Source: Bacteroidales bacterium
Lineage (GTDB): Bacteria > Bacteroidota > Bacteroidia > Bacteroidales > GCA-2748055
Direction: 5' to 3'
Assembly: GCA_029931975.1 (NCBI GenBank)
Contig: JAOZQY010000028.1
Coordinates: 1 to 44,931, forward strand
Length of the DNA stretch: 44,931 nt
The notes beneath the pieces were generated by a model that saw only the letters and a list, made by a program, of their open reading frames with translations, was not told the origin of the DNA and searched no databases. The position numbers were made by a program, and so were the translations under genes. Positions 6,925-13,420 of this stretch are shown here, piece after piece; position 1 is the first letter of the stretch; every line of letters begins with the position of its first letter.

Positions 6925-7155
6925 ATGAAAAAACGAAATTTTTTGATTGCAGCTACGCTTGTGATGTCCATGGTAATTGTTCCATCATGCGACTTTATTG
7001 AAGAGTGTGGAACCTGCGAGCTGGTAACAGAGGATGCTGATGGAAACAAGACCTACGGCACACCCCTTCCATTTTGCGGTGATGACTTAACTGAAAAGGA
7101 TAATGAATCGCCTGTAACTATCAACGGTATAACCACATATTGGAACTGCTACTAG
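6925..7155 (+). CDS. Small cysteine-rich lipoprotein
   Basis: 76 residues. There is a KKR start, a hydrophobic segment and a lipobox-like VPSC with the acylatable cysteine at residue 22. The mature part is only about 55 residues and holds four more cysteines: a CGTC pair (29 and 32), one near 51 in PFCGDD, and one at the penultimate position (NCY). Four cysteines could make two disulphides or bind a metal. I do not recognise a named family. It has its own canonical promoter, so it is very probably a real gene in spite of its size. Its stop codon shares the palindrome CTAG with the stop of the convergent phosphatase gene. Confidence 0.75.
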   Translation: MKKRNFLIAATLVMSMVIVPSCDFIEECGTCELVTEDADGNKTYGTPLPFCGDDLTEKDNESPVTINGITTYWNCY

Positions 7156-8966
7156 GCCCTGACCCCAACGATCACCACATCATCTACCTGCTCAACCTCT
7201 TTCCGGTAATCAGCAAATACTTCATCCAGGCGCTTCCCCTGTTCAATCATGGGAAGATTCTGGATATGCACAATCAGGTTCCTAAAATTCTTGGTCAGGA
7301 ATTTTTTCTCCTTTGGACCTCCAAACTGGTCAGCAAATCCATCTGAGAAGGTATAGAAAGTATCCCCCTCCTTTAATTCTAACTGATGTAGTGTAAATGG
7401 GTCCATCACTTCGTGTATGGCCACCGGCATTTTATCGCCCTTAATCTGCGTCAGGACACCATCCGACACCAGGTAAAGAGGATTATTTGCTCCGCTGAAC
7501 TGTAAGTGCTTTGTCTGGCTATCGAACAGGCAAATAGTCATGTCCATTCCATCCTTAAGGATACTCCCACTATCCTGCTTAAGGGCTTCTATGATTTTAT
7601 CACGCAATTCATTCAGAATCGAATCCGGACGAGTGATCTCATTTGAAATAATAATCTCATTTAAGAGGCTGACTCCCAGCATACTCATAAATGCCCCGGG
7701 AACTCCATGGCCTGTACAATCGGCTGTGACAATCATATATTTTCCCTCCACCTCTTCTGCCCAGTAAAAGTCTCCGCTTACGATATCCCTCGGTTTAAAT
7801 AGCACAAAATGATCAAGATTGTGTGAGAAGAGTTCCATGGTTGGAAGAATGGCTGTCTGAATCTTCTTTGCATACTCGATACTATCGGTAATATGTTTCT
7901 TTTGATAGGCAATCTGGTCTCTCTGGGCCTGCAGCAAAACATTTGCTCTTTTCTTGAGCAGATAATTTCGCCAGATAAAATAAGCCAGGCCAAACAAAAG
8001 CAGTAATGCCAGAGCTGCTGCCAGTATGATGATTTTCTGTTTCTGAATCGCCTCCGCCTGCACCACAATTTTTTCATCCTGCTTTCTGATCTCTGTCTCT
8101 TTTTGCGTAATAGCCTCCTCTTTTTCCCGGATGCTGAGTTCCTGCTTGGCCAGAATCTCACGCTGTTGATTCACCTCCTTGATCTGAGTCTCAATGGTGG
8201 TGCTTTGCTCTTTGATTTCTCCTTCCTGTATCTGAAGCACTGCGGTCTTTTCCAGAATCTCAGCTTCCCGCTCCTCTATTTCACCTCTTAACTTATTTAG
8301 GGTCTTCCTGTTATCGCCTATTAACACTTCCTGGTCGCGAATCTGATCCTGTTGCTGTTCAATTAACAGGTACTGCTGTTCGGTAATGCTTTTCTCAAGT
8401 TCCAGTTCATCTTCTGTAACCTCATACAGGGATTCCCAATCTTCCCTGGTCTTAATAGCATGAGCCAGAAAGGATTCATTTACATAGAGACCCTCCCGGA
8501 GCATTAACTCCTCATTTGCCTCAAACTGTGGCTCACCATCAATTACCACGAAATTGATCATAGATGAACGGAAGGGGTAACCTTCGGATATCAAAAGCGT
8601 ATTGGCTCCTCTGGTCTTCTTTATAACTTCATCCATCTCAAAGCCATCCTCCCGATTCAGAAAGACAAGCTGTCCTGGTTCAAGTTTTTCAATATCGGTA
8701 CATACTCTGATCCGGATTGGTAAGCCCTGAATCTCCTTACGGGTCTTCGACAATTTCTCCAGGTCAAAGAAAAGATCCGTATCATTATCAAGAAGGGTTA
8801 TCAAAAAATCCTCACGCCCCTGCTCAGCATCGTTAAAAAGAACATACCTGGAGATGTCAAGTATATACAGGGCACGGGTTTCATTGGTAAATCCCTCCTG
8901 TGCCAGCACAAGGGGTGCAGACAAAAAAAATAATACCAGGAAGACCAGATTCCTGAAGCTTTTCAC
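7152..8966 (-). CDS. YfiR-like sensor / coiled-coil / SpoIIE-type PP2C phosphatase
   Basis: About 604 residues from a GTG at 8966. An in-frame TTG at 8981 is also open, but GTG gives a clean signal peptide (KSFRNLV, hydrophobic run, VLAQ). Order: signal peptide; a YfiR/DUF4154-like periplasmic domain (about 25-170, with the typical SSMINFVVIDG stretch); a long heptad-rich coiled coil (about 185-305); one membrane helix (about 311-333); and a cytoplasmic SpoIIE/RsbU-type PPM phosphatase. In the phosphatase GDFYW, ADCTGHGVPGA and FSDGFADQ supply the metal-binding aspartates. The family dephosphorylates anti-anti-sigma-type partners. Here it probably passes a periplasmic signal inward. No kinase or STAS partner is adjacent. 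Confidence 0.85.
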   Translation of the reverse strand: MKSFRNLVFLVLFFLSAPLVLAQEGFTNETRALYILDISRYVLFNDAEQGREDFLITLLDNDTDLFFDLEKLSKTRKEIQGLPIRIRVCTDIEKLEPGQLVFLNREDGFEMDEVIKKTRGANTLLISEGYPFRSSMINFVVIDGEPQFEANEELMLREGLYVNESFLAHAIKTREDWESLYEVTEDELELEKSITEQQYLLIEQQQDQIRDQEVLIGDNRKTLNKLRGEIEEREAEILEKTAVLQIQEGEIKEQSTTIETQIKEVNQQREILAKQELSIREKEEAITQKETEIRKQDEKIVVQAEAIQKQKIIILAAALALLLLFGLAYFIWRNYLLKKRANVLLQAQRDQIAYQKKHITDSIEYAKKIQTAILPTMELFSHNLDHFVLFKPRDIVSGDFYWAEEVEGKYMIVTADCTGHGVPGAFMSMLGVSLLNEIIISNEITRPDSILNELRDKIIEALKQDSGSILKDGMDMTICLFDSQTKHLQFSGANNPLYLVSDGVLTQIKGDKMPVAIHEVMDPFTLHQLELKEGDTFYTFSDGFADQFGGPKEKKFLTKNFRNLIVHIQNLPMIEQGKRLDEVFADYRKEVEQVDDVVIVGVRA

Positions 8967-9039
8967 AGATCCCAAATTCAATATTTAGTGGTCAAATTAA
9001 CTATTTTTTTTTACTATTGCAGCATAGACACGCCTCCCG

Positions 9040-10251
9040 ATGAACCTATTAATCGTTATCCTCTGCATTTTTGGAGGCTCGATACTTCTGCTTTTTCTTC
9101 CATTTAAAGGAGCTCACTCCTACACCCAGCCTCGTCCGGAAAAAAGGATTCATGAGGGTGATGTTGTATTGTCGAGAAGAATGCTCATTCCCGGCAGCGA
9201 TGCCTACAAAGCCTATTACCAGTGTCGCCCGGAGTTCCGAGATGCAGATGATCGTTCAAGGAAAACTCCCGGTCTGCTGGACAGGCAGTCCCGGTTTTTT
9301 CATGCCGAAACCTTTGCCGCTGCAAAAGCCAACTTTGAGTTGATCGACTACATGGGAGCACTCACCCACGGTTCAAAAAGCGCAAATCTTGTTACTTCAG
9401 AATTATTGACCGCCGAAGCCCTAAAGGTGAACCCGAACAAAACTTCACGTTTTATTTCTACCTGGTTAAAAAAAACCGGAGCCCACAGTGTTGGATTTAC
9501 ACGCCTGGAAGACTATCATCTCTACTCACATAAAGGAAGAGGGCCCCATTCAGGAAAACCCATCATCAAAAAGCATGAATATGCCATCGCCCTAACCGTT
9601 GAGATGGATCACAGGATGATGCAATCGTCGCCCCGGGGAAGCACAGTTATGGAATCATCCGAACAGTACCTGCAATCGGGGGTTCTTGCCCTGAAGCTGG
9701 CCGCCTGGATCAGAGAGCTTGGATATGAGGCAAGGGCCCATATTGATGGCAACTACGAAGTGATTTGTCCCCTCGTGGCCATGGATGCCGGATTGGGAAC
9801 CATAGGAAGAATGGGACTTCTGATGACCCCCCGTCTTGGTCCGCGGATCAGAATATCAGTAGTTACCACCAATATGCCGGTGTCCTGTGAAGATCATAAA
9901 CCCGACAGAACCACTCTCCATTTTTGTCAGCTCTGTAAAAAATGTGCAAGAGTTTGTCCCTCAGCTGCCATCCCCGAGGGTCCCCGTGAAATCATAGAGG
10001 GACAGGAGCGTTGGCAGATAAATTCAGAGAAATGTTATCACTTCTGGACCACCTCGGGAACCGACTGCGGTATGTGTATGTCAGCCTGTCCATTCAGTCA
10101 CCCCGATAACCCATTTCACCGCTTTATCAGGTGGGGTATAAAAAATAATTTGTTTTTCCGACATCTGGCAGTTAAATTGGACGATCTGTTTTATGGCCGG
10201 AAACCGGCCATAAAACCATTACCTGACTGGACAGGTATAAGAGAAAGATAA
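9040..10251 (+). CDS. Membrane-anchored reductive-dehalogenase-like / epoxyqueuosine-reductase-superfamily Fe-S protein
   Basis: 403 residues. Residues 3-22 form a single hydrophobic anchor; there is no twin-arginine signal. The middle has the cobamide-binding reductase signature of the RdhA/QueG superfamily: an AxxIRELGYEARAHIDGNY segment, then DAGLGTIGRMGLLMTPRLGP and a TTNMP strand. The C-terminal part has two 4Fe-4S motifs, C296-x2-C-x2-C-x3-C306-P and C332-x10-C343-x2-C-x3-C350-P, the two-cluster pattern of reductive dehalogenases. Family members use a corrin cofactor to remove halogens or reduce epoxyqueuosine. The substrate here is not known. It is translationally coupled (TAATG) to the SLC13 permease. 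QueG itself is less likely because of the membrane anchor and the long N-terminal region. Confidence 0.78.
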   Translation: MNLLIVILCIFGGSILLLFLPFKGAHSYTQPRPEKRIHEGDVVLSRRMLIPGSDAYKAYYQCRPEFRDADDRSRKTPGLLDRQSRFFHAETFAAAKANFELIDYMGALTHGSKSANLVTSELLTAEALKVNPNKTSRFISTWLKKTGAHSVGFTRLEDYHLYSHKGRGPHSGKPIIKKHEYAIALTVEMDHRMMQSSPRGSTVMESSEQYLQSGVLALKLAAWIRELGYEARAHIDGNYEVICPLVAMDAGLGTIGRMGLLMTPRLGPRIRISVVTTNMPVSCEDHKPDRTTLHFCQLCKKCARVCPSAAIPEGPREIIEGQERWQINSEKCYHFWTTSGTDCGMCMSACPFSHPDNPFHRFIRWGIKNNLFFRHLAVKLDDLFYGRKPAIKPLPDWTGIRER

Positions 10252-12056
10252 TGACTATCACTTCCTATATAGCCCTTGGAGTAATCCTCCTGATGATTGT
10301 AGCTCTGATTCGGGAAATTCTGCGTCCCGGTCTGATTCTCTTTGCGGCCCTGGTTATTTTCATGGTAACCGACATTATCTCTGCAGAGGATGCCCTGTCC
10401 GGGTTCTCCAACAAGGGAATGATTACCGTAGCCCTGCTTTTCCTGGTAAGTGAAGGGGTGAAAGAGTCGGGGGTCCTGGCCCGTGTGGGACGATATATTC
10501 TTCCTAAAAAGCGCAAACCCATTTCTAGGCTGCTGATGCAGATTATGATCCCCGTAGCAGGCATCTCAGCATTTCTCAATAACACACCCGTGGTGATCAT
10601 TTTCGGTCCCATGTTAAAAAAATGGGCCGATAAACTGAGCCTGCCCTCCCAAAAATTCCTGATCCCCCTCTCCTATGCCACCATTTTCGGTGGTACATGT
10701 ACCCTTATCGGCACATCCACCAACCTGCTGGTTCATGGTATGATGCTCGACCGGGGAATGGAAGGCCTGGGAATGTTCGAACTGGCCAAAGTGGGGCTCT
10801 TCATGGTCTTTTTTGGCTTCATCTACATGAACCTCTTTGCTAACCGGCTCTTGCCGGGAGAAAAGATCCCCAGGTTTAGTTTCCCCAACGATACCAGGGA
10901 ATATTATTTTGATCTCTACCTGCCAAAAAACTCCAACCTCATTGGAAAAGAAATTGAAAAACGAAAGCTTCCCGGCCTGGAGGAATTCTCGGTACGTACT
11001 GTAATCAGAAACGATAAGCACATTCGCATTTCAAACACCCCCTTCCTGCTGGAGGCCGATGATAAGTTAATTGTTGCCGGAAGTTCTGAAAATGTGGGCT
11101 ATCTGACCCGGGCCACAGAGGTGAAGTTGAAAGCCCTGGAAAATGTGGCTCCCGATTTCCTGAAAAAATCACTGCGACAGGTGGAAGTGGTAATTGCTCC
11201 CCGCTTTCCCGGTATTCAGCGAACACTGAAAGAGTTTGACTTCTTTGGCCACTACAATGCTGAGGTTATGGCTGTGCATCGCAATGGTGAACGTATTACC
11301 ACCAACCTTGATAAGCTTGAATTTAAGGCTGGTGATAACCTGATGCTTCTGACCACAGAAGATTTTACCAGGTACTGGGGCGAATCCAGGGTCTTTTATA
11401 TGGCATCCGAAATTGGTGAGATGGACAACTCCAAGGATCGAAGGAGAAGATGGATAGCTATGATTCTTGTTTTCCTGATGATCGCAGGAGCAACTCTCGG
11501 TCAATTCATCCCGGTGCAGGGGAAAAATCAGTTTGACATGTTCTTCTTCGCTGCCATTACAGTTGTCCTGATGGCTCTGATGAAAATATTTTCAGCGAAA
11601 AAATACACCAAACCCATCAACTGGGATGTGCTGATCACCATTGCCTGTGCCATTGGTATCAGCCGTGCTCTTCAAAACTCAGGAGCTGCAGATTTCATTG
11701 CACGCAGCACCATCAATATTTCAAAAGGTTTTGGGCCACTGGGGGTTATGGCAGCCATATTTATTATTACCAATATCTTCACCGAAATCATTACCAACAA
11801 TGCAGCTGCGGCCATCACCTTCCCCATCGCCTATGCAGCAGCCACCCAGCTTGGAGTAGACCCCAGGCCCTTTTTTATTACCATATGCATAGCTGCTTCG
11901 GCTAGTTTTTCAACCCCCATAGGCTATCAGACCAACCTGATTGTCCAGAGTATTGGCAACTATAAGTTCAGTGACTACTGGAAAATAGGTTTGCCCCTCA
12001 ATATCCTGGCATTGATCATCTCACTGCTGGTTATTCCTCGTTTCTGGCCCTTTTAG
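10251..12056 (+). CDS. SLC13/DASS-type anion permease with two TrkA-C (RCK_C) domains
   Basis: 601 residues. Two transporter halves of several membrane helices each flank a cytoplasmic insert. Each half has a re-entrant SNT-like motif: FLNNTPVV near residue 110 with GTSTNLL near 152, and ITNNAAAAITFP near 520 followed by TPIGYQTNL. The insert (about 215-390) holds two TrkA-C domains, each with the EFSVRTVIRNDKHI-type strand and a DKLIVAG or DNLMLLT end. This is the architecture of bacterial Na+/sulfate or dicarboxylate permeases of the SLC13 group. The start ATG overlaps the stop of the dehalogenase-like gene by one base, so the two proteins are probably made together; the permease may supply or export an anion related to that enzyme. 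Confidence 0.85.
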   Translation: MTITSYIALGVILLMIVALIREILRPGLILFAALVIFMVTDIISAEDALSGFSNKGMITVALLFLVSEGVKESGVLARVGRYILPKKRKPISRLLMQIMIPVAGISAFLNNTPVVIIFGPMLKKWADKLSLPSQKFLIPLSYATIFGGTCTLIGTSTNLLVHGMMLDRGMEGLGMFELAKVGLFMVFFGFIYMNLFANRLLPGEKIPRFSFPNDTREYYFDLYLPKNSNLIGKEIEKRKLPGLEEFSVRTVIRNDKHIRISNTPFLLEADDKLIVAGSSENVGYLTRATEVKLKALENVAPDFLKKSLRQVEVVIAPRFPGIQRTLKEFDFFGHYNAEVMAVHRNGERITTNLDKLEFKAGDNLMLLTTEDFTRYWGESRVFYMASEIGEMDNSKDRRRRWIAMILVFLMIAGATLGQFIPVQGKNQFDMFFFAAITVVLMALMKIFSAKKYTKPINWDVLITIACAIGISRALQNSGAADFIARSTINISKGFGPLGVMAAIFIITNIFTEIITNNAAAAITFPIAYAAATQLGVDPRPFFITICIAASASFSTPIGYQTNLIVQSIGNYKFSDYWKIGLPLNILALIISLLVIPRFWPF

Positions 12057-12067
12057 TGCTTAAGCAC
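12056..12067. repeat. Perfect 12-base palindrome in a convergent intergenic gap
   Basis: GTGCTTAAGCAC begins on the last base of the permease stop codon and sits between the permease gene and the decayed gamma-glutamyltransferase. It is followed by GGGCGCTTAGTACC, which resembles short words seen at 13434-13466 and 31263-31290. It could be a weak bidirectional terminator stem, although no T-run follows. Confidence 0.4.
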
Positions 12068-12074
12068 CGGGCGC

Positions 12075-13345
12075 TTAGTACCCTGCCGCCTGTCCGTCTT
12101 TTCTGGATTCGGAGGCACCAAAATAAACCCCCTTCTCCTTATCCCACATTATGGCCTGGTACCCACCATAACCACCTGTAGAACTCTGAACCTGGTGACC
12201 ACGATCCAACAAAGCACGAATACTTTTATATGGGATTCCCGACTCCAGGTTCACAACTCCCCCGTCAGTCATGTTTGTCCCCGTTGGCTGAGATGATCCA
12301 TCATGACGTATTCGCGGAGCATCTCCGGCCTCCTGTAAATTCATTCCAAAATCGATCATATTAACAACTATCTGGGCATGACCCTGGAGCTGCATGGATC
12401 CTCCCAATACCCCAAAACTCATAAATGGCAGGTATTATGGTGTGAAAAGGTCTCTTTCCGGGCTCATACATATTGAAGTGTCCCTCCTCCAGGGTGAACA
12501 ATTCACCACGGTCCTGCAGAATAAAACCCAGTCCCGGGGGACACATCCCTGAACCAAGACCCCTGAAATTGCTCTGGATCAGGGAAATCATATTCCCCTC
12601 TTCATCAGCTACAGTAAAGTAAAATGTATTTCCGTACTCCATCTCGCCAGCATCCAGGTTACGTGATGCCCTGACCATTGGGAGGAAGCTCCCATATATC
12701 GTAGCCGCGATAATTTATACTTAACGGTTCGACCCACTCAGAACGATGACTGGCCAGATCCTCATAGGAAACATTAGGATAACTGCTCAGGGATCTGGCG
12801 TTGCCAGCCCAGTAATGAGCAATAAGTTCCGTTACAGGAAAACCTTCCCTGGCATAAGTAATGGTTGGTTTCAGTATCTGATCCATTTCCATAGTCCCAA
12901 ACTTCTTATTCAATTCAAACCAGCCATCCACACATCCTGGTACTGAAACTGGAAGTGGACCAAAAGCAGGAATTTTATCATAATCATTCTGCCTGAAATA
13001 ATCGATGGTCAGTGAACGGGGCGACCTGCCGCTGGCATTCAGCCCATACAATTTCTTTGTTTTAGCATCCCATAGAATCGCAAACAGATCTCCACCCACT
13101 CCATTCCCGGTAGGCTCCACCAGTCCAAGCAAGGCATTTGCCGCAATGGCAGCGTCAATGGCGTTTCCGCCAGCTTTCAGAATATCCAGCGCCACCTGGG
13201 TGGCCAGGGGCTGACTCGTACAGGCCATTCCATGCTGTGCAATCACTTCGGACCGAGTTGCAAATGCTTCTCCTGTAATCCTGTCCTGAGCAAAAGTGAC
13301 AGTAAACAACAGAAACAGGCTTAAACTAAAAAATAGATTTTTCAT
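12075..13345 (-). pseudogene. ggt: Gamma-glutamyltransferase (GGT), broken by two internal deletions/frameshifts
   Basis: Three reading frames give consecutive pieces of one GGT. The first piece (start ATG 13345, signal peptide ending VTFAQ) runs through AGGNAIDAAIAAN and GNGVGGDLFA to ELPPNGQGIT and stops at once. The second (12361-12678) resumes at RASRNLDAGE and includes NTFYFTVADEEGN, where the Thr aligns with the autoprocessing nucleophile. The third (12075-12422) starts at SFGVLGGSMQLQGHAQ and carries the C-terminal region. By comparison with remembered Bacteroidota GGTs, about 75 codons are missing at the first join (near 12670) and about 8-10 codons at the second (near 12425). Both joins change frame. 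GGT normally cleaves glutathione in the periplasm; this copy cannot. A terminator precedes the gene, which also argues for the 13345 start over 13405. Assembly error is the alternative. Confidence 0.85.
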
Positions 13346-13389
13346 GTTTTCTATATATGTCTTCTTGAACAATATGGGCAGTAAAATAC

Positions 13390-13420
13390 AAAAAACCCTG
13401 CCCACAATGGTGAACAGGGT
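13390..13420 (-). terminator. Rho-independent terminator after the GH16-like gene
   Basis: Read on the minus strand, a stem of ACCCTG / CAGGGT (13415-13420 and 13395-13400, 14-base loop) is followed directly by a T-run (13390-13394). It lies downstream of the GH16-like gene and upstream of the GGT start. Confidence 0.7.

Follow-up and report, generated by a model that had tools for sequence, protein, structure and literature searches.

A hybrid class of reductive dehalogenases (RDases) has been described in which RdhB-like helices are fused ahead of RdhA, so that the protein carries N-terminal transmembrane helices (TMHs) and has no twin-arginine translocation (Tat) signal (Jochum 2018, as cited; Atashgahi 2019, PMC6797604). 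A Glu-X-Glu (EXE) motif and three TMHs characterise the majority of hybrids without defining the class, and Table 1 of the same paper has one-helix members, including the 402-residue Bacteroidetes protein RLD55593 from hydrothermal sediment (one TMH); how hybrids with an exoplasmic catalytic domain would be secreted without Tat was posed there as an open question (PMC6797604). RDase genes have also been reported in 112 Bacteroidota genomes (Zhang and others 2025, PMC12090745). Here we analyse a 44,931-nucleotide stretch of Bacteroidales DNA (contig JAOZQY010000028.1; the window), in which an rdhA-like gene is followed directly by a gene for an SLC13-type permease (Table 1). The first gene encodes an RdhA-type protein of the RdhA fold, with the catalytic and cluster residues in place. 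Judged from its sequence, the product (the window protein) is probably an inward-facing, membrane-bound, quinol-linked RDase; it represents a truncated form of an enzyme class already known, is genuine and well conserved, and comes with a useful inference about orientation.

Profile searches, fold comparison and phylogeny place the window protein with RdhA rather than with the epoxyqueuosine reductase QueG. The NCBIfam RDH profile TIGR02486 matches it at 152.6 bits (E 2.2e-44), 8 bits short of the curated cut-off of 160.35, as many hybrids of the order also fall slightly short, and the QueG profile TIGR00276 reaches 31.3 bits against an equivalog cut-off of 200, which leaves it outside QueG. 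When 295 genomes of the order were scanned with the RDH profile, RDase genes among the matches listed scored mostly 119-218 bits and QueG-like genes at most about 77 bits, with two short fragments in between; the window protein scored 146.9 bits in that scan. A PDB search with a profile of 31 relatives returned NpRdhA (7e-53), SmPceA (1e-50) and DhPceA (5e-45), and QueG at 3e-6. An AlphaFold2 model from a 61-row alignment (predicted local distance difference test 92.6, predicted template modelling score 0.91) gave VIA Z scores of 35.8 with NpRdhA, 35.0 with DhPceA (359 residues) and 14.7 with QueG. The fold is thus nearer to RdhA than to QueG, and two 4Fe-4S motifs and a catalytic Tyr with an Arg/Lys partner, the other marks of the RdhA fold family in the broad sense, are present as well.

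Tyr210 and Arg271 correspond to the catalytic pair discussed for DhPceA (PMC10624902). Both occur in 62/62 rows labelled hybrid, a set that includes one different fusion (L113), which may be the odd row in some counts, and in 9/9 Tat RdhA rows, and the three QueG rows have the Tyr210 equivalent in none and the Arg271 equivalent in one. A single row of the 62, the RdhA of G007 (L068 2073-3281, minus strand), has Gly in place of C332. In a quick tree of 77 rows, which held none of the published hybrid sequences, the hybrids form one set (Shimodaira-Hasegawa-like approximate likelihood ratio test, SH-aLRT, 96), and the window's genus is nested within it (98). The placement in an RdhA/QueG tree that the preliminary description had called for therefore groups the window protein with the hybrids and not with QueG, in line with its view of the gene as RdhA. 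The same genome has a separate true QueG (G000:C319; 327.8 bits, above the equivalog cut-off), and the window protein is the only RdhA found in it. QueG identity and an explanation as a ferredoxin only were both rejected on profiles, PDB search, residues, tree, fold Z scores and this separate QueG. We infer that the window protein binds a cobamide.

A protein of this fold need not dehalogenate. It might be a cobamide/Fe-S reductase with other chemistry, for example another reductive cleavage, as QueG is within the superfamily, and the gene neighbourhoods of hybrid rdhA leave room for this. In a GTDB scan that kept 80 loci of 331 (68 outside the window's GTDB family, 56 of those with at least 2 kb downstream), no recurring partner that explains function was found within 5 kb. 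Outside the family the neighbourhoods are varied and no halogen-linked partner was recognised: the commonest neighbours, named by eye, are a TPR-type sensor-like gene (13 loci), a polysaccharide chain-length and polymerase-like pair (11 each) and scattered housekeeping genes, and some loci have nitrilase-like (six) or DDAH-like (five) genes (L178-L246). However, the RDase catalytic Tyr is invariant together with its Arg partner and is missing from all three QueG rows, and transcripts of Bacteroidales RDases whose TAT motif is incomplete or missing have been reported from cultures dechlorinating tetrachloroethene (PMC12090745). We regard non-dehalogenating chemistry as rather unlikely, and favour, with moderate confidence, a corrinoid and 2x[4Fe-4S] reductive dehalogenase of the hybrid class that is predicted to face inward.

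The window protein shares with the hybrids an N-terminal TMH, both FeS motifs, the absence of Tat and rdhB, and the clade itself. It differs from canonical respiratory RdhAB in lacking a Tat signal peptide and an adjacent rdhB, and from the hybrid majority in having a single helix and, within residues 1-110, no E.E. The hydropathy and pattern scans bear out the preliminary description in that the protein is anchored by its own helix and has no twin-arginine motif (first 70 residues scanned). Its suggestion that self-anchoring makes a new kind of enzyme does not hold, since this form is already in Table 1 of Atashgahi 2019 (PMC6797604). One locus (L168) has a gene for 402 residues, at 73% identity, whose product may be RLD55593 itself.

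What is new is that the window's genus has lost the two RdhB-like EXE helices and kept the third, linker helix, as read from alignments. In all 11 sequences examined from the genus (the window and L061-L070, L067 being cut by a contig end) one helix is predicted in 383-423 residues, and in 4/4 rows from the family's other genera (L071-L073, L075) there are three helices in 446-454 residues. Nearly all remaining hybrids examined have three helices too. L141 (G224:C55, 5514-6752), a hybrid from outside the family, is shorter, with 412 residues, two helices and no E.E up to residue 110, and may have lost the RdhB-like hairpin independently. The alignment identifies the helix kept in the window's genus as the third one, and the part that was lost is where the EXE motif lies: 50/52 three-helix rows have it within or beside the loop that joins helices 1 and 2. 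In an hhalign comparison, the hybrid stretch from helix 1 through EXE to the start of helix 2 aligned with helix 2, EXE and the start of helix 3 of RdhB-like proteins at 90.9% (pairwise E 1.1e-6), and a reversed decoy reached 0.3%. On the hybrid side 50/53 long rows had E.E in the searched stretch, one such window probably not being the motif itself; on the other side 7/9 RdhB-like proteins were used (L152 and L165 left out), six of them with E.E. From this match, the N-terminal part of a hybrid seems to consist of an RdhB hairpin and one additional linker helix, of which the window's genus has only the linker. A missed upstream start that would restore helices 1 and 2 was rejected: a divergent gene lies only 58 bases from rdhA, which leaves no room for the missing helices or an RdhB, and, as previously noted, no rdhB adjoins the gene, the permease being downstream. 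The loss across a genus offers a natural truncation for testing the role of the hairpin.

Two other arrangements were seen among the RDases collected. L113 (G156:C155, 6657-8360, minus strand) encodes a three-helix RdhB-like module, an internal Tat-like motif (SRRNFLGT) and, after these, RdhA. Its place in the quick tree is beside a Tat RdhA (SH-aLRT 99) and outside the hybrid clade, and it represents a second kind of fusion. In L150, L151 and L152, from the congeners G006, G017 and G013, a Tat RdhA is followed 4 positions on by an RdhB-like gene of 93-99 codons with an EGE motif, so some congeners carry both types of RDase.

The hybrids' charge distribution bears on which side of the membrane they face, and this prediction is new. 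With helices set by a hydropathy scan, 60 of 61 rows were counted (52 three-helix and 8 one-helix; L244, with two predicted helices, was left out). In the three-helix rows the mean number of Lys plus Arg (K/R) is 0.40 ahead of helix 1 and 0.60 in loop 2-3, against 3.04 in loop 1-2 and 3.40 over the 15 residues that follow helix 3, and the positive-inside pattern favours a cytoplasmic C-terminal domain in 52/52. The one-helix rows have no K/R ahead of the helix and 2-5 after it in 8/8, again a C-in pattern. RdhB-like open reading frames (ORFs) beside Tat RdhAs served as a control: in 9/9, two to five K/R fall in loop 1-2 and one in loop 2-3, and loop 2-3 holds E.E in 8/9, so that charge places this loop outside (the L112 ORF lies upstream and has no E.E; a second L165 ORF was taken as chance and not counted). 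This is consistent with the cryo-electron microscopy structure of DhPceA with its partner, in which loop 2-3 of PceB is on the P side (PMC10624902). Furthermore, the EXE stretch has a mean net charge of +0.98 in hybrids (n=50) and -1.0 in RdhB (n=6). The fused hairpin of the hybrids is thus predicted to be inverted relative to genuine RdhB. From a uniform pattern opposite to that of RdhB, the catalytic domain of the hybrids and of the window protein is most likely cytoplasmic, as the preliminary description had guessed for a folded domain without Tat.

Folded corrin/Fe-S domains are not expected to pass Sec. An exported, outward-facing catalytic domain would have to follow a Tat-independent route, and would agree with the TMHMM call for the 402-residue one-helix protein in Table 1 of PMC6797604 and with the PceA-type quinone pocket, which functions on the P side in the solved complex. 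The missing Tat motif and the 8/8 one-helix proteins with positive charge only behind the helix speak against export, which we consider very improbable. For a domain facing the cytoplasm, as we prefer, the pattern across 60 related proteins gives a directly testable answer to the question of which side hybrids face. Hybrids occur in many seabed bacteria; if they face inward, the compounds dehalogenated by these bacteria would be ones that get into the cytoplasm, and expectations about substrates and energy yield would change accordingly.

Residues of the RdhA half of a menaquinone pocket are conserved as well, a new observation that is suggestive of a quinol donor. In DhPceA, menaquinone lies between two C-terminal PceA helices (H495, R499, D515, Y520) and helices 2 and 3 of PceB (PMC10624902). 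Counting along the aligned chain, H360, R364 and D381 of the window protein fall on H495, R499 and D515, and Y385 lies near Y520, an approximate match that is one residue off by counting. Among the rows labelled hybrid, H360 is present in 62/62 and R364, D381 and Y385 each in 61/62; NpRdhA is without the His and Arg of the site. The genome encodes MenA and a cobalamin adenosyltransferase. Menaquinol is therefore a plausible electron donor on these sequence grounds.

Several observations weigh against an inward-facing, quinol-linked RDase. Besides the shortfall from the TIGR02486 cut-off, the Pfam Dehalogenase profile PF13486 matches 3/31 relatives at E <= 0.01, the window protein not among them, and NpRdhA sits on a very long branch in the quick tree. 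The TMHMM calls in PMC6797604 are split between the two sides, with the 402-residue one-helix protein exoplasmic, and the 60 proteins of the charge count are related sequences and not independent observations. NpRdhA, the structurally characterised cytoplasmic enzyme, depends on NADPH (PMC10624902). Respiratory RdhAs do not all carry the quinone-site residues: in SmPceA the R364 position is Glu, and 7/9 Tat RdhA rows show Gln for D381 and Phe for Y385. Conservation of these residues is therefore no more than suggestive. The genus would also be missing the side of the pocket that the lost helices form, and with it quinol coupling may be weaker or absent. Finally, CobS was not found in the genome (assembly 96% complete), which suggests an imported cobamide, or else the gene is missing from the assembly.

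With these points in mind, the remaining third helix would anchor the enzyme N-out/C-in, with the corrin and Fe-S domain on the cytoplasmic face. Electrons would most likely come from menaquinol at the membrane surface, or failing that from a ferredoxin or flavin in the cytoplasm, and would pass through the two clusters to cob(I)alamin; a halogen would then be removed from a substrate present in the cytoplasm, with Tyr210 (as proton donor) and Arg271 taking part. The permease would probably be translated from the messenger of rdhA and yet be a separately selected transporter. For the hybrid class at large we offer, tentatively and with slightly less than even confidence, that its members are inward-facing menaquinol:organohalide oxidoreductases, in which an RdhB helix-EXE-helix hairpin was fused inverted ahead of RdhA and a third helix returns the chain, keeping the whole path from quinone to corrin cytoplasmic without Tat. 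The hairpin would then have been shed in the window's genus, leaving a one-helix RDase with, maybe, a different partner or donor.

The permease next to rdhA matches CitMHS (224.6 bits), Na_sulph_symp (82.0 bits) and TrkA_C in two stretches (50.0 for the whole protein), and reaches 126 of the 198.6 bits of the TIGR00785 dass cut-off. The TAA of rdhA and the ATG of the permease have one base in common (10251, TAATG); this overlap, the ORFs, the single helix and both 4Fe-4S motifs are all present as first described. In 12/12 family pairs examined the junction lies between a 4-base overlap and a 5-base gap. Substitution ratios (dN/dS, nonsynonymous to synonymous) of 0.085-0.176 for rdhA (9/14 computed pairs with usable dS, the other five being saturated) indicate purifying selection, and with the tight junctions show that neither the gene nor the arrangement is due to chance. 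We infer co-transcription of the two genes. An orthologue of the permease (at least 72% identity) occurs in 22/28 genomes of the family, as a 72-residue fragment at a contig end in G011, and intact rdhA precedes it in 15 of the 22, counting G006, where a contig end splits the pair, and G009, where the rdhA 5' end is on another contig; G005, whose contig begins inside the permease, could not be judged. The pair is thus kept beyond a single strain (15/28 family genomes), and it was found in this one GTDB family only.

The preliminary description also proposed that the permease imports a halogenated or sulfonated anion for a cytoplasm-facing reductase, the two forming one functional unit. The overlapping or near-overlapping junctions (8 of the 12 with a 4-base overlap) favour this, a cytoplasmic active site would suit an imported substrate, and no intact rdhA was seen in the block without the permease in the 28 family genomes. 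However, gene order in the block asmA-spoIIE-rdhA-permease-ggt-GH16-atpD is largely shared among genomes whose contigs have the length to show it, apart from single genes that are absent in places, so that adjacency follows from descent and needs no functional cause. In six family genomes (G001, G011, G014, G019, G020, G027) rdhA is gone and the permease gene is kept, as the full 601-residue frame in four of them (contig ends cut those of G011 and G014); on the permease tree six rdhA changes are needed, four of them forced by well supported branches, which makes four to six independent events. G018 and G023 have a hybrid rdhA outside the block and only a 32-33% permease homologue. Purifying selection is about three times stronger on the permease than on rdhA in most pairs, with permease dN/dS of 0.028-0.090 (11/14 pairs usable, three saturated), at most 0.051 in 10 of those 11.

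Outside the family, no SLC13/permease homologue above 40 bits was found in the fetched flanks of the 68 hybrid loci, nor in those of 38 hybrids from the order set, some of them shared with the 68 (2 kb or more downstream was available for 32 of the 38). Conversely, 18 genomes of the order outside the family have full-length permease orthologues (47-58% identity). Among them G201 has a hybrid RDase, which lies on a different contig; in the other 17 the top-scoring RDH match falls within the range of QueG-like genes, or there is none among the matches listed. Six neighbours scanned around one such orthologue (L154) gave no pointer to the permease substrate: metallo-beta-lactamase/flavodoxin, NusG, diaminopimelate epimerase, trypsin-like protease, a sigma factor and one protein without a match. 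Our literature search found no paper joining 'reductive dehalogenase' with 'SLC13' (subscription papers and preprints lay outside its coverage). An obligate reductase-transporter unit for uptake and reduction is unsupported given the synteny, the rdhA losses and the 0/68 outside loci, and we judge it improbable that this permease brings in the substrate of the reductase as one functional unit with it. The pair is probably a lineage-specific operon in which the permease, with a separate use of its own, is a co-expressed neighbour rather than an obligate partner, although the reductase may still benefit from it. Of the two grounds on which the preliminary description rested, the anchoring was already known and the transporter coupling stands weakly.

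Remnants of rdhA survive in the genomes that lost it. A 3' remnant lies right before the permease start in 5/6 (L076, L078, L079, L159, L164), about the last 25-42 codons of the gene, three clear (E 1e-5 to 2e-11) and two weak (E about 0.01-0.02); none was found before the permease of G020. These 3' ends persist as if they held expression signals for the permease. In the window, a promoter scan of 8900-12200 found 5 sites with 4.1 expected, which is chance level, and terminator-like sites numbered 8 with 3.8 expected (standard deviation 2.0). The divergent neighbour (7152-8981, minus strand) joins a YfiR/HmsC-like domain (DUF4154) with a SpoIIE phosphatase. On the other side, a gamma-glutamyltransferase-like gene (12075-13405, minus strand) is broken up over three ORFs that lie in different frames and falls short of its length in relatives (median 562 residues, 6 loci), being either a pseudogene or an assembly error.

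Table 1. Positions in the window of the two genes and of the helices, motifs and residues of the rdhA product
Feature	Positions	Strand	Basis or remark
rdhA-like gene, 403 aa, ATG start; single-helix 'hybrid-class' reductive dehalogenase homologue	9040..10251	+	ORF, profiles, tree, model
SLC13/CitMHS permease gene, 601 aa, ATG start; two TrkA-C domains	10251..12056	+	ORF, profile matches
Single N-terminal transmembrane helix, residues 3-21; third helix of three-helix hybrids	9046..9102	+	0 K/R before, 4 K/R in the 15 residues after
Tyr210	9667..9669	+	Aligned with catalytic Tyr337 of DhPceA and Tyr246 of SmPceA
Arg271	9850..9852	+	Aligned with Arg396 of DhPceA, Arg305 of SmPceA and Lys488 of NpRdhA
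First 4Fe-4S motif, C296-x2-C299-x2-C302-x3-C306-P307	9925..9960	+	
Second 4Fe-4S motif, C332-x10-C343-x2-C346-x3-C350-P351	10033..10092	+	
C-terminal helix pair (model helices 358-369 and 371-385) with H360, R364, D381, Y385	10117..10194	+	Matches the RdhA half of the DhPceA menaquinone pocket

Compared with known systems, the window protein stands closest to the hybrid RDases of marine-sediment Bacteroidota, with which it shares the N-terminal helix anchor, both FeS motifs and the lack of Tat and rdhB; most hybrids have three helices and an EXE loop, whereas the window's genus has the third helix only and, in addition, a permease gene that overlaps or adjoins rdhA. With the menaquinol:organohalide oxidoreductase PceA2B2 of Desulfitobacterium hafniense (8q4h, PMC10624902) it has in common the fold (Z 35.0), the Tyr/Arg pair, two clusters and the RdhA-side menaquinone residues, but PceA is exported by Tat to the P side and has a separate RdhB, whereas the window protein has neither Tat signal nor RdhB hairpin and is predicted to lie on the cytoplasmic face. 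The catabolic NpRdhA (4ras) shares the fold (Z 35.8) and the cytoplasmic location predicted for the window protein, but is about 700 residues long, with an internal repeat, no known membrane helix, NADPH dependence and no equivalents of H360 and R364. QueG has the superfamily fold (Z 14.7) and the cluster motifs, but the Tyr210 equivalent is missing from the three rows examined and the genome has a QueG of its own. The permease, for its part, resembles DASS/SLC13 permeases with TrkA-C domains in its CitMHS and Na_sulph_symp matches and two TrkA_C stretches, and differs from them in falling under the TIGR00785 dass cut-off.

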